A DNA stretch of 64,000 bases, taken from NCBI RefSeq assembly GCF_014193585.1, contig NZ_BLXY01000002.1:124001-188000 (forward strand), in the 5' to 3' direction. Every line of letters starts with the position of its first letter. The first letter of the stretch is position 1. The position numbers were made by a program, and so were the translations under genes. Positions 24,162 through 28,248 of this stretch are shown piece after piece. The notes under the pieces were generated by a model. The model ran no database searches. It had not been told where the DNA came from and saw only the letters and a program-made list of their open reading frames with translations. The stretch comes from Geomonas paludis. Its GTDB lineage: Bacteria; Desulfobacterota; Desulfuromonadia; Geobacterales; Geobacteraceae.

Positions 24162-25307
24162 ATGAACATCGCAACAACCGCAGCACAGATAGGCCTGGAG
24201 CGTGAGAGCCGGACCGGCGCCGTCACCGTTCCCATCTACCAGACTGCCACATTCCGCCACCCCGGCCTCGGTCAGAGTACCGGGTACGACTACAGCCGCT
24301 CCGGCAACCCGACCCGCCAGGCCCTCGAGGAAGGTCTGGCCCGGCTCGAAGGCGCCAGCCGCGGCTTCGCCTACGCCTCTGGGATGGCCGCCATCACCAG
24401 CCTCATGTTCCTGTTCCAGCAGGGAGACCACCTGATCGTCACCGAAGACCTCTACGGCGGGAGCTACCGGCTCTTCGAGAAGCTGTTCCAGCAGTTCGGC
24501 CTGACCTTCAGTTATGTCGACACCAGCGACGTGGAACAGGTGCGCCAGGCGATCCGCCCCAACACCCGCGCTCTCTTCGTGGAATCGCTCACCAACCCGC
24601 TTTTGAAGGTCGCCGACGTGCGCGGGCTGGCCGAGGTGTGTAAGGCCAACGACATGCTCTGCATCGTCGACAACACCTTCCTGACCCCCTACCTGCTGCG
24701 CTGCCTCGACCTTGGCGCCGACATCACCGTGTACTCCGGCAGCAAGTACCTGGCCGGCCACAACGACGTCGTCTGCGGCCTGGTGGCGGTGAAGGACGCG
24801 GCGCTGGCCGAAAAGGTCTACTTCCACCAGAACGGCGCCGGCGCGGTACTCGGGCCGCAGGATTCCTGGCTCACCATCCGCGGCATCAAGACCCTCGGCC
24901 TGCGCATGGACCGCCAGCAGGAAAACGCCCTGGCGCTGGCGCAGTGGCTCGAGCAGCATCCCAAGGTGGGGCGCGTGTATTACCCCGGCCTCCCCAATCA
25001 CCCGGGGCACGCGCTGATGCAGCACCAGTGCGGCGGCTTCGGCGCCATGATCGCCTTCGAAGTGACCGAACCGGCGCTGGTGAACCAGCTCTTGATGAAG
25101 ACCCAGATCATCTCCTTCGCCGAGAGCCTGGGCGGGGTCGAGAGCCTGATCACCTTCCCCCAGGTGCAGACCCATGCCGACATCGAGCCGGAGAAACTGC
25201 AGCGGCTCGGCATCAACCACCTGCTCTTGCGCCTCTCCGTGGGGATCGAAGACAAGGACGACCTGATCGCCGACCTGGCGCAGGCTTTTGAAGGAGAAGA
25301 CGCATGA
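24162..25307 (+). CDS. metB: Cys/Met-metabolism PLP enzyme, cystathionine gamma-synthase-like
   Basis: 381 residues, cytoplasmic, fold-type I PLP enzyme. YDYSRSGNPTRQALE, ASGMAAI, the Asp of IVDNTF that contacts the pyridine nitrogen, and the PLP lysine in YSGSKYLAGHND are all present. C-terminal SLGGVESLITFP is family-wide. Members include cystathionine gamma-synthase, gamma-lyase and O-acetylhomoserine sulfhydrylases. SAM-riboswitch control argues for biosynthesis (synthase) over catabolism. ATG 24162 follows GGAGG by five bases. Its TGA overlaps the next ATG, so it is coupled to the second enzyme as in B. subtilis metI-metC. Exact reaction needs alignment. Confidence 0.85.
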   Translation: MNIATTAAQIGLERESRTGAVTVPIYQTATFRHPGLGQSTGYDYSRSGNPTRQALEEGLARLEGASRGFAYASGMAAITSLMFLFQQGDHLIVTEDLYGGSYRLFEKLFQQFGLTFSYVDTSDVEQVRQAIRPNTRALFVESLTNPLLKVADVRGLAEVCKANDMLCIVDNTFLTPYLLRCLDLGADITVYSGSKYLAGHNDVVCGLVAVKDAALAEKVYFHQNGAGAVLGPQDSWLTIRGIKTLGLRMDRQQENALALAQWLEQHPKVGRVYYPGLPNHPGHALMQHQCGGFGAMIAFEVTEPALVNQLLMKTQIISFAESLGGVESLITFPQVQTHADIEPEKLQRLGINHLLLRLSVGIEDKDDLIADLAQAFEGEDA

Positions 25308-26440
25308 AATTCGCCACCGAACTGATCCACGGCCTGGACCCGATCGACGCCCAGCACGGCTCCGTCAGCCACCCCATCTACCTCTCCTCGACCTTTGCGC
25401 AGCGCTCCATCGACAGCTTCGGGCGCTACGACTACGCCCGCTCCGGCAATCCGACCCGCGAGGCGCTGGAAGAGGCGGTAGCCGGGCTGGAAAAGGGAGC
25501 CGTCGGCCTCGCCTTCGCCTCGGGAATCGCGGCCACCGCCTCCACCCTGCTCCTGTTCCGGCCGGGCGACCACCTGGTGGTGTGCGAGGACGTCTATGGC
25601 GGCACCTTCCGGCTGCTCACCACCCTGTTCAAGGGGTGGGGGCTGGAGGCCACCTTCGTCGATGCAACCGACAACGACGCCATTGCCGCGGCCATCCGTC
25701 CGGAGACCAGGGCGCTCTACCTGGAGACCCCGTCCAACCCGCTGATCAAGATCACCGATCTCTCCGCCGCGGTGGCGCTGGCCAAGGAGCACGCGATCCT
25801 CACCATCGTTGACAACACCTTCATGACCCCGTACCTGCAGCGGCCCTTGGAGCTTGGCTGCGATATCGTCGTGCACAGCGGGACCAAGTTCCTCAACGGC
25901 CACTCCGATGTCATCTGCGGGTTCGCGGTGGCGAAGGATGCCGAGTTGGGGCAGCGGCTGCGTTTCATCCAGAATGCCTTCGGCGCCGTGCTCGGTCCGC
26001 AGGACTGCTGGCTGGTGCTGCGCGGGCTGAAAACCCTCAAGGTACGCATGGAGGAACACCAGGCAAGTGCGCGGAAAATAGTGGCATGGCTTGGCGAGCA
26101 GAAAGAGGTGCGGCAGGTTTACTATCCCGGCCTCCCCGACCATCCCGGTTACGAGATCCACAACCGCCAGGCAAGCGGCCCCGGTGGTGTGCTCTCCTTC
26201 GAGCTTGCCAGCTACGACACCACCAAGCGGCTGTTGGAAGGGGTGAAGCTGGCGGCCTTTGCCGTGAGCCTCGGGGGCGTCGAGAGCATCCTCTCCTACC
26301 CCGCCAAGATGTCGCACGCGGCGATGCCGCCGGCCGAACGCGAGGCGCGCGGGATCAAGGATACGCTGGTGCGTCTGTCGGTGGGTCTCGAGGACCCCGA
26401 TGACCTGATTGCCGACATGGCAAGGTTCCTCAACGTTTAA
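25304..26440 (+). CDS. metC: Cys/Met-metabolism PLP enzyme, cystathionine beta-lyase-like
   Basis: 378-residue paralogue of the preceding enzyme, start overlapping it as ATGA. Conserved: YDYARSGNPTREALEE, ASGIAATAS, IVDNTFMTPYLQ, PLP lysine in HSGTKFLNGHSD, SLGGVESILSYP. As the second gene of a SAM-regulated pair it most likely cleaves cystathionine to homocysteine, completing transsulfuration, but gamma-lyase cannot be excluded. The two genes may descend from a duplication. No intergenic signal separates them. Confidence 0.85.
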   Translation: MKFATELIHGLDPIDAQHGSVSHPIYLSSTFAQRSIDSFGRYDYARSGNPTREALEEAVAGLEKGAVGLAFASGIAATASTLLLFRPGDHLVVCEDVYGGTFRLLTTLFKGWGLEATFVDATDNDAIAAAIRPETRALYLETPSNPLIKITDLSAAVALAKEHAILTIVDNTFMTPYLQRPLELGCDIVVHSGTKFLNGHSDVICGFAVAKDAELGQRLRFIQNAFGAVLGPQDCWLVLRGLKTLKVRMEEHQASARKIVAWLGEQKEVRQVYYPGLPDHPGYEIHNRQASGPGGVLSFELASYDTTKRLLEGVKLAAFAVSLGGVESILSYPAKMSHAAMPPAEREARGIKDTLVRLSVGLEDPDDLIADMARFLNV

Positions 26441-26449
26441 AAAAAATAC

Positions 26450-26570
26450 AAGCAGTTACGCAAAGAACGCTGAGTATCCGCGATGGACGCAAAGAAAGAC
26501 TCGGGATGGTAACCCCAAAAGCTTTCATTGCGTTCTTCGCGCCTACTTGAAGTTCTTTGCGTAACTGCTT
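26450..26570. repeat. 121-base two-tier palindrome
   Basis: Outer arms of 19 perfect bases (AAGCAGTTACGCAAAGAAC at 26450-26468, complement at 26552-26570). Inner arms at about 26480-26498 and 26522-26540 match at 15 of 19 positions. It begins 10 bases after the metC-like stop. The CGCAAAGAA word recurs three times in the element. Confidence 0.85.
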
Positions 26571-26646: not shown

Positions 26647-27993
26647 TCACCTCTTCCACTTGAAGCTCACCGTCTTCACCCCCGGGATCGCCTGCTGGAA
26701 TACCGCTAACCCCTCGTCCGTGATGCTGTTGCCGCTGCTGGTAAGCCCCTGCAGCCCCTGCATCCCCTGCAGGTACACCAAGCCGCGATCGGAGATGCGG
26801 GTCTGGTACAGGTAGATCCGTTTCAGGTTGGCGAGCGTCGAGATGCTGAGCAGCGCCGCGTCGCTCAACTCCGGCCCGCACAGGTAAAGCTCCTCGAGCC
26901 CGGAGAGGTGGACGATGCTGTCCAGGTCGGCGTCGCAGACGTCGTACAAAAAGAGGGCCTGCAGATCCTCCGGACCGAGCCCCTGCAACGACTTCAGCTT
27001 CCGCGGCGCCCCCTCTTTCACATCCAGCCGCAGGGCCTGGTCCAGGTAGACCTGCACCGGACCGATGGCGGGCCCCGCCTTCTTCCAGGCGTTGAAACTG
27101 ACCGAGTTGAGCTCGCGCAGGTATAGCGTGCCGCAGGGAAGGTCGTTGGGGAAAGTGACCGTGCGGCTGCGTTTGCTCGCGCCTTGCGCACGGACCCGCC
27201 CCTTTTCCCCCTGCAGGGCGGCCAGGCGCCGCTGGGCGCGGGCGATGTTGATCTCGGCAGCAGCCACCAGGTCGGCAAAGAGATCGCTGCCAGCCGCGGC
27301 GCTTTCATCGACGCGCAGCTTGAAACGGTGCACGTAGCTGCCGCGCAACTGCTCGACCTGCTCGTTGATCTCCCGGATCGCCTCGATCTCGACCGCTATC
27401 TGCTTTTTCAGCCGGGCCAGCTCGGCCCTCAGGTCGCTCTGCTCGGCCTGCTCCGGGAAATGCCTGCGCCAGTTCCTGAGGATCTCGCGCAGGGTACGGT
27501 GGTCCTCCTCGGCGTAGGCCTTGTTCGCCTTCAGCATCAACTCATGCCGCAGCGAGCCGGCGCCCTCCCCCGCCAGGTCGGGATGAATGGCCTTGGCCAC
27601 CTCGCGATAGAGAGCCTTGATGTCGCCCTCATCGGCCTTCCAGACCCGCCCCCGCACCTGTCCCTCGCCGCGGAAGGCTGTGCCGCGCCGGTAGGTCTGG
27701 CCATCGCTGACATCATCTTCGTCGCGCCGGCAGGTCTGCTCGTCGACGCCGTCCGTCTCGGGCGGGACGTAGCTTCCGGAAAGGCGGGCGATCTCCTCTT
27801 CCAGCCGTTCCAACTCGGCCATGCGCCGCCCAAGCGTCTGCTGGTAGCTTCTCTCGAAACCGGCGATCTCCTCGCGCAGATGGTGCAAGACGGCAGCGGC
27901 CTCGGCATGCCGGGCACGCAGGGAGGCCAGCTCGGCACGCTTGTGCTCGAGTTCCACTTCCTGGGCAGACCTTTGTTGATAGTGTGCTGTCAT
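26647..27993 (-). CDS. Coiled-coil / J-domain-like / leucine-rich-repeat protein
   Basis: 448 residues, no signal peptide. Coiled coil about 8-72 (ELEHKRAELASLRARHAEAA). A J-domain-like segment about 118-170 has IKALYREVAKAIHPDLAGEG, keeping the HPD tripeptide (137-139) used by DnaJ proteins to stimulate Hsp70. Second coiled coil about 188-225. C-terminal leucine-rich repeats about 335-448 show the LxxLxxLxL rhythm (LSGLEELYLCGPELSDAALL, then LANLKRIYLYQTRISDRGLV). This combination suggests an Hsp70 co-chaperone with LRR-based client recognition, which is inference. Own terminator; weak ribosome site at ATG 27993. Confidence 0.82.
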   Translation of the reverse strand: MTAHYQQRSAQEVELEHKRAELASLRARHAEAAAVLHHLREEIAGFERSYQQTLGRRMAELERLEEEIARLSGSYVPPETDGVDEQTCRRDEDDVSDGQTYRRGTAFRGEGQVRGRVWKADEGDIKALYREVAKAIHPDLAGEGAGSLRHELMLKANKAYAEEDHRTLREILRNWRRHFPEQAEQSDLRAELARLKKQIAVEIEAIREINEQVEQLRGSYVHRFKLRVDESAAAGSDLFADLVAAAEINIARAQRRLAALQGEKGRVRAQGASKRSRTVTFPNDLPCGTLYLRELNSVSFNAWKKAGPAIGPVQVYLDQALRLDVKEGAPRKLKSLQGLGPEDLQALFLYDVCDADLDSIVHLSGLEELYLCGPELSDAALLSISTLANLKRIYLYQTRISDRGLVYLQGMQGLQGLTSSGNSITDEGLAVFQQAIPGVKTVSFKWKR

Positions 27994-28139
27994 AGGCGTC
28001 GCACTGTCTCAGATATTATTGAGAAGCCGTGAATTTTGAGCAGACATTAACACGACCTGAGCCTGAGTTACAAAAGATTTTATCACACTGAGGGAAATGT
28101 AGATTCAGGGCAGGAGAAAGACTGTAACAGGAGAGAAGC

Positions 28140-28211
28140 CCCTCACCCTGACCCTCTCCCAGAGGGAGAGGGGACTGTGTAGGGTGGACCCTCTCCAGGC
28201 GGAGAGAGGAC
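28140..28211. repeat. Degraded copy of the GAGAGGG-type element
   Basis: CCCTCACCCTGACCCTCTCCC then AGAGGGAGAGGGG, a second CCCTCTCC/GGAGAGAGG stem follows. Lies between the J-LRR gene and yaiI. Confidence 0.6.
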
Positions 28212-28248
28212 TGTTAAGGGTTGGAAGGTTGGAAGGGGATCGTAAAGG

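Follow-up and report, generated by a model that had tools for sequence, protein, structure and literature searches.

A helix-I-less J core joined to leucine-rich repeats in Geomonas looks like the fused form of a J-module and repeat-adapter system

Within the window, by which we mean the whole 64,000-nucleotide stretch of Geomonas paludis DNA that was analysed (contig NZ_BLXY01000002.1, positions 124,001 to 188,000), an open reading frame of 448 amino acids lies on the minus strand at 26647..27993, as first noted, and its full-length homologues are co-linear with it and free of internal stops in every case found. A preliminary description of the sequence had read the product as a coiled-coil protein with an HPD-bearing J-like segment in its middle and leucine-rich repeats (LRR) at its C-terminus, and this order of parts was borne out by the full-length AlphaFold2 model (58-row alignment; mean pLDDT 83.5, pTM 0.46) and by matches to LRR structures. 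The model begins with one long helix, coiled coil 1 (residues 10-72; 27778..27966, minus strand, as are all coordinates of parts given here), which is conserved in the stand-alone modules described below. It is followed by a variable linker (residues 73-122; 27628..27777) that occupies the place of helix I in a canonical J-domain and is of low confidence at residues 80-122 (pLDDT below 50). The J core (residues 125-178; 27460..27621) consists of helix II (125-136), a loop with the HPD motif (residues 137-139; 27577..27585), helix III (146-161) and helix IV (165-178). A second helical segment, coiled coil 2 (residues 180-270; 27184..27456; helices at 180-217, 220-233 and 238-270), closes what we call the CC-J-CC module and is likewise homologous to stand-alone modules. 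After it come a beta cap (strands within residues 276-325; 27019..27168) with the pattern FP.D....G.LY.R...S, and the leucine-rich repeats (residues 329-448; 26650..27009), modelled as alternating strands and helices at residues 329-444. The earlier outline thus stands for the coiled coil, the HPD J core and the LRR, with these amendments: coiled-coil-like helices flank the J core on both sides, a small beta cap stands before the repeats, and a recognisable helix I is missing from the J part.

The gene is convergent with two genes for Cys/Met-metabolism PLP enzymes, which form an adjacent tandem pair at 24162-26440 (Pfam E 1e-146 and 4e-147), and a DUF188 gene and genes for cobalt transport lie upstream of it. 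A 49-nt inverted repeat (26450-26570; 82% complementary, with 23 nt between the arms) is located between the J-LRR gene and its convergent Cys/Met-enzyme neighbour, and upstream of the J-LRR gene, at 28120-28215, a repetitive CCCTCACCCTGACCCTCTCC-like sequence was spotted by eye; a promoter scan found no promoter. None of the Geomonas neighbours points to a client, and we discarded this neighbourhood as functional evidence, as it is conserved within close relatives only.

The LRR arm is supported by comparison with solved structures. Residues of about 274-448 match LRR structures including InlB and an FBXL2 complex at VIA Z scores of 11-15 among the matches listed, most of which are LRR proteins as judged by their titles. 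In Foldseek, a single match had E below 0.001, to a chain of the GGTase3-FBXL2-SKP1 complex, and phmmer aligned the window protein with InlB at E 6e-6. A Pfam scan of the window protein itself gave LRR_8 below its gathering score (12.8 of 27 bits); of 58 relatives, 34 match LRR_4 with E values up to 0.01. The predicted tandem strand-turn-helix repeats are those of an LRR fold, which the arm has in common with bacterial LRR proteins such as internalin B and the Roco LRR; compared with these, the Geomonas arm is short (about five repeats), carries its own beta cap and is fused to a J-module.

A search of relatives' genomes returned matches in 54 of 97 genomes and 13 of 28 genera. One of these, in genome G086 (L068), is an ordinary DnaJ-type protein matched at E 1.5e-4, and after its removal 53 of the 97 genomes have a member of the fused family, whole or as a fragment. 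The fused gene is present in all 18 other genomes of the genus and so, with its own, in 19 of 19 as a stable single gene; it was also found in 4 of 29 genomes of other genera of the family and in most of one further family of the order (f4). Across the order (Geomonas, Citrifermentans, Trichlorobacter and Oryzomonas relatives) it is single-copy and co-linear with a constant order of parts, and the closest named relative by the fused protein is Geomonas anaerohicana, at 95%. In an alignment of 52 distinct fused homologues, from which two fragments (L066 and L067) and L068 were left out, HPDL is invariant down to about 31-35% identity. Mean pairwise identity is highest in the J core (0.71 over residues 126-160), with 0.47-0.49 in the coiled coils, 0.52 in the cap, 0.53 in the LRR and 0.21 in the linker. 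By chance, 0.016 HPD motifs would be expected per protein of the same composition (327 of 20,000 shuffled sequences had one). In many relatives (among L022-L065), the end of the linker next to the J core carries an acidic motif, TDLLDD, which is missing from the window protein.

Helix I belongs to every textbook J-domain. The J core was examined by both sequence and structure. In HHalign, the J segments of 58 relatives, taken as a profile, aligned to 11 canonical J-domains with a probability of 97.96% (E 2.9e-13, 43 columns), compared with at most 2.2% for eight decoy windows cut from the coiled-coil parts of these proteins. When the J-segment profile was run against PDB sequences, the top row was a designed protein; among J-domain proteins the best match was DNAJA3 (E 8e-4), followed by DnaJ2, CbpA, auxilin and further ones. 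In helix III, the A-N-x-A-Y signature is the sequence counterpart of I-N-E-A-Y in canonical J-domains. Pfam DnaJ matches stay below threshold: the window protein scores 15.3 of 27.8 bits (residues 120-141), 18 of 58 relatives match with a best E of 5.5e-5, and of two stand-alone modules scanned the higher-scoring one reaches 23.6 bits. The profile comparisons support a J-domain origin for what the preliminary description had called a J-like segment. The structure prediction it had named as a check gave a divided answer. A model of the J segment alone (pLDDT 83.7, pTM 0.72) shows helix II, the HPD loop, helix III and helix IV, and so has the helix-HPD-helix hairpin; in neither this nor the full-length model is there any confident helix before residue 125 except coiled coil 1, and real J-domains match the J-only model weakly in VIA (auxilin at Z 3.5 over 48 residues and 3.3 A, CbpA at Z 2.8). 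Designed three-helix bundles came first in both Foldseek and VIA, with unrelated bundles at Z 5-8. Our reading of these comparisons is that the J core is probably a true J-domain descendant in which helix I has been lost or displaced and the DnaK-facing hairpin kept. It is conceivable that helix I forms only in a complex, the linker being of low confidence in the models, and the TDLLDD motif of the relatives' linkers could be a stand-in for it.

No DnaJ region other than the J core was matched in the window protein, and the core lies in mid-protein; the protein is of class C as that class is defined, namely by a J-domain without the G/F and zinc-finger regions and at any position. Like other class C proteins, it has the HPD between two antiparallel helices and its J core within a larger protein with interaction domains, and it differs from them in the missing helix I, in the long helices that enclose the J core and in falling below the Pfam DnaJ cut-off. 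The same genome encodes DnaK and, besides this sub-threshold protein, three J proteins above the Pfam cut-off.

The equivalent of residues 1-270, the CC-J-CC module, also occurs without the LRR in at least six phyla, with hosts in Methylomirabilota, Acidobacteria, Cyanobacteria, Hydrogenedentes, Acidimicrobiia and other members of the window's phylum, and on a Paraburkholderia plasmid. In the phyla counted, it was present in 6 of the 386 cyanobacterial-phylum genomes (E 1e-30 or better), in 1 of 60 from the Methylomirabilota phylum and, at E 1e-8, in 12 of 119 from the Acidobacteria phylum, two of these twelve being distant J-type matches only. There are two plasmid matches to the module, in Granulicella and Paraburkholderia, and no match to the full fused protein in 72,556 plasmid records; neither the 50,697 phage records nor the scanned viral contigs contained a match to the module. 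Sixteen modules, fused and stand-alone, align without a break from the first coiled coil to the second, and every one of them has HPDL. Across 86 distinct modules (52 fused and 34 stand-alone) HPD is present in every one, and N-x-A-Y of helix III is nearly as constant. This J type extends beyond the module: longer proteins of 350-410 aa (L199 and L201-L217, which are cyanobacterial and of 350-390 aa, and L162, L228 and L229) have the same helix-I-less J with a similar turn before helix IV, and they were excluded from the module counts because they do not have coiled coil 1.

To describe the surroundings of the stand-alone module, we examined 34 loci, leaving out two contig-cut fused genes (L133 and L137) and three contig-cut modules (L146, L184 and L233). 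Half of these loci (17 of the 34) have a repeat-protein gene as the immediate downstream neighbour in the same orientation, most often abutting or overlapping the module gene; by Pfam, the repeats are Sel1 in eight cases, TPR in five, WD40 in two, and LRR and WG in one each. The distance from module to partner gene ranges from -14 to +189 nt and is within +20 nt in 14 of the 17 pairs, six of which overlap by exactly 4 nt. One such arrangement is visible in the record annotation of Granulicella plasmid pACIX902 as a hypothetical protein followed by an overlapping "tetratricopeptide repeat protein", in which Pfam finds Sel1 repeats. The other 17 loci have no recognisable repeat partner; they include the whole of a separate module subfamily (VRKLFRDVAKAIHPDL) of eight loci in Acidobacteria and Acidimicrobiia (L140-L145, L147 and L148). 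An upstream ORF at the Paraburkholderia locus L267, with a faintly motif-like start, was considered as a partner and rejected, having none of the listed repeat types and no motif score, and the locus was counted as having no partner. Two Sel1 partners carry an extra C-terminal domain, of the UDG superfamily or of sigma-70 region 4 (L139:3644-5815 and L179:5532-6002), and may be effectors rather than plain adapters.

The partners have in common an N-terminal motif ahead of their repeats, roughly S..L[VIL].RGL[DEN]L (S..LVxRGLDL). As it was first spotted post hoc, we scored it by leaving out groups of related partners in turn, and found that 11 of the 17 partners outscore all 3,587 background N-termini taken from the other ORFs of the same loci; the six that fail are five near-identical Sel1 proteins of Acidobacteria and L269. 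This is a fairer test than a regular expression, which was written after viewing the partners, misses 7 of the 17, and had five matches among 3,450 ORFs, all of them partner genes. In searches of whole genomes with a profile of all partners, the best match was the module-adjacent gene in 16 of 16 genomes (E 2e-9 to 4e-21), a result that is partly circular as the searched genomes supplied the profile. The second-best match in these genomes was at E 0.025 or worse, so that no genome has a comparable second protein.

One locus, L178 in genome G156, shows the two halves of the Geomonas protein as separate genes. Here an LRR gene overlaps the module gene by 14 nt, and its product carries the N-terminal motif (E 5.9e-8 in the leave-out test) and, after the motif, a beta cap shared with the Geomonas protein (E 8e-15); the class to which this genome belongs has three genomes with this one match. 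The motif is absent from the 52 fused proteins (best score 4.2 bits), and is therefore present where the pieces are separate and absent where they are joined. The existence of module and LRR both as neighbours and as a fusion is classic evidence that they work together, and we propose that the fused protein can do without the motif because its link is covalent. In a tree of 52 modules, the fused proteins form a supported group with the exception of one long branch (L047), and a single group of all 18 fused modules was not rejected by the AU test (p 0.44). The module of the split LRR pair falls outside the fused clade with modest support, and its grouping with the fused modules was not rejected (AU p 0.22). 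When modules without a partner are left out, the tree requires seven changes of partner class; a single origin was not rejected for either Sel1 (p 0.073) or TPR (p 0.083), and repeated swapping is therefore not proven by the tree. We therefore see in the Geomonas protein what seems to be a fused version of a system of J-module and exchangeable repeat adapter, with fusion of once separate pieces the presumed direction of change.

We therefore favour, with somewhat better than even confidence, the view that a helix-I-less J core in a coiled-coil scaffold with an LRR arm constitutes a class C-like J-domain co-chaperone and the fused form of a two-part system. In this co-chaperone, the LRR arm would bind a particular set of targets or a cellular location, and DnaK would then be recruited by the HPD loop and fired at the arm's target. 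The wider two-part system would pair the constant CC-J-CC module with a repeat protein from the following gene, and the conserved motif at the N-terminus of this partner is probably what docks it on the module. The earlier suggestion that the LRR could select clients for DnaK fits the pairing of the same module with separate repeat proteins elsewhere. A broader formulation, which we offer tentatively and with slightly less than even confidence, is that of a previously undescribed modular bacterial Hsp70 system, in which a constant helix-I-less CC-J-CC module would work with interchangeable LRR, TPR, Sel1, WD40 or WG adapters through a common docking motif and would be hard-wired by fusion in Geomonas and its relatives.

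The same gene pairs could also be read with the roles reversed, the repeat protein being itself the client and the CC-J-CC module a dedicated chaperone that brings DnaK to its partner, a service that fusion would make permanent. Overlapping co-encoded pairs fit a dedicated chaperone, and the authors of the work on AtcJ consider that DnaK might act on AtcC or AtcB as a substrate (PMC6715715). However, one N-terminal motif across five unrelated classes of repeat suits docking better than a need for folding, and a permanently fused client would presumably hold the J core after folding had ended; we consider this explanation unlikely. That the J core has lost its part in Hsp70 activation and serves as a structural piece of a helical scaffold, with HPD kept for some other reason, would agree with the missing helix I, the designed bundles nearest to the J-only model and the sub-threshold Pfam scores. 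We nevertheless regard it as decidedly improbable, given the constancy of HPD and, nearly, of the helix III residues across all distinct modules, and since pseudo-J proteins are defined by a replaced HPD, as stated in a review (PMC13254874).

The gene order of one group of relatives raises the possibility of a role in replication or repair, in which DnaA-family or RuvAB complexes would be remodelled with DnaK. In the Trichlorobacter/Oryzomonas group the order is ruvB (identified by eye), an Hda-like AAA+ gene (Bac_DnaA E 2e-19, Hda_lid 4e-12) and the CC-J-LRR gene, with overlapping ends (for example L108:8038-11317), and the Hda-like gene is directly upstream, mostly overlapping, in 51 of 76 loci, a count in which a few genomes appear twice. 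J proteins and DnaK are known to act together on replication initiators. The arrangement is, however, confined to this group, and Geomonas and the other families have different neighbours; we consider such a role very unlikely. We give even less credence to a role in conflict or defence, in which the exchangeable repeats would act as sensors: the patchy distribution, the variety of repeat classes and the UDG-superfamily and sigma-70 region 4 domains on one partner each would suit it, but PADLOC returned repeat cross-hits only and nothing meaningful, the module is absent from the phage records and viral contigs scanned, and the gene is a stable single gene throughout the genus.

Among known systems, AtcJ-AtcC of Shewanella is the nearest experimental precedent for the co-chaperone reading that we prefer. 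AtcJ, a short J protein of the atcJABC operon of Shewanella oneidensis, binds AtcC tightly through a 21-residue C-terminal tail (PMC6715715). The module and its partner would resemble this in arrangement, as a small dedicated J protein linked to the product of the same operon by a short peptide extension. The two differ in that the peptide is at the C-terminus of the J protein there and the conserved motif at the N-terminus of the partner here, and in that the partners here belong to several classes of repeat protein and, in Geobacterales, module and repeat arm form one protein. DNAJC7/TPR2 is similar in that its J-domain is fused to repeats that bind other proteins (PMC13254874); its TPRs precede the J-domain, and it has no LRR, coiled-coil module or split pairs.

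Neither the LRR nor the CC-J-CC module appears among the J-protein combinations in the available portions of three reviews (PMC8215388, PMC13254874 and PMC10939069), and in the literature searched we found no description of a bacterial J protein with LRR, or of a CC-J-CC module with repeat partners. The survey of Barriot et al. 2020 may list the combination, and priority for both the J-LRR combination and the module system is uncertain.

The choice of targets for Hsp70 by J proteins is mostly known as one fixed adapter per protein. If our reading is correct, a constant J-module with an arm that varies over five unrelated repeat folds, either separate or fused, would make it possible to test directly whether the targets of DnaK are set by the adapter alone. 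A J core that apparently lacks helix I also bears on the minimum that is needed to trigger Hsp70.
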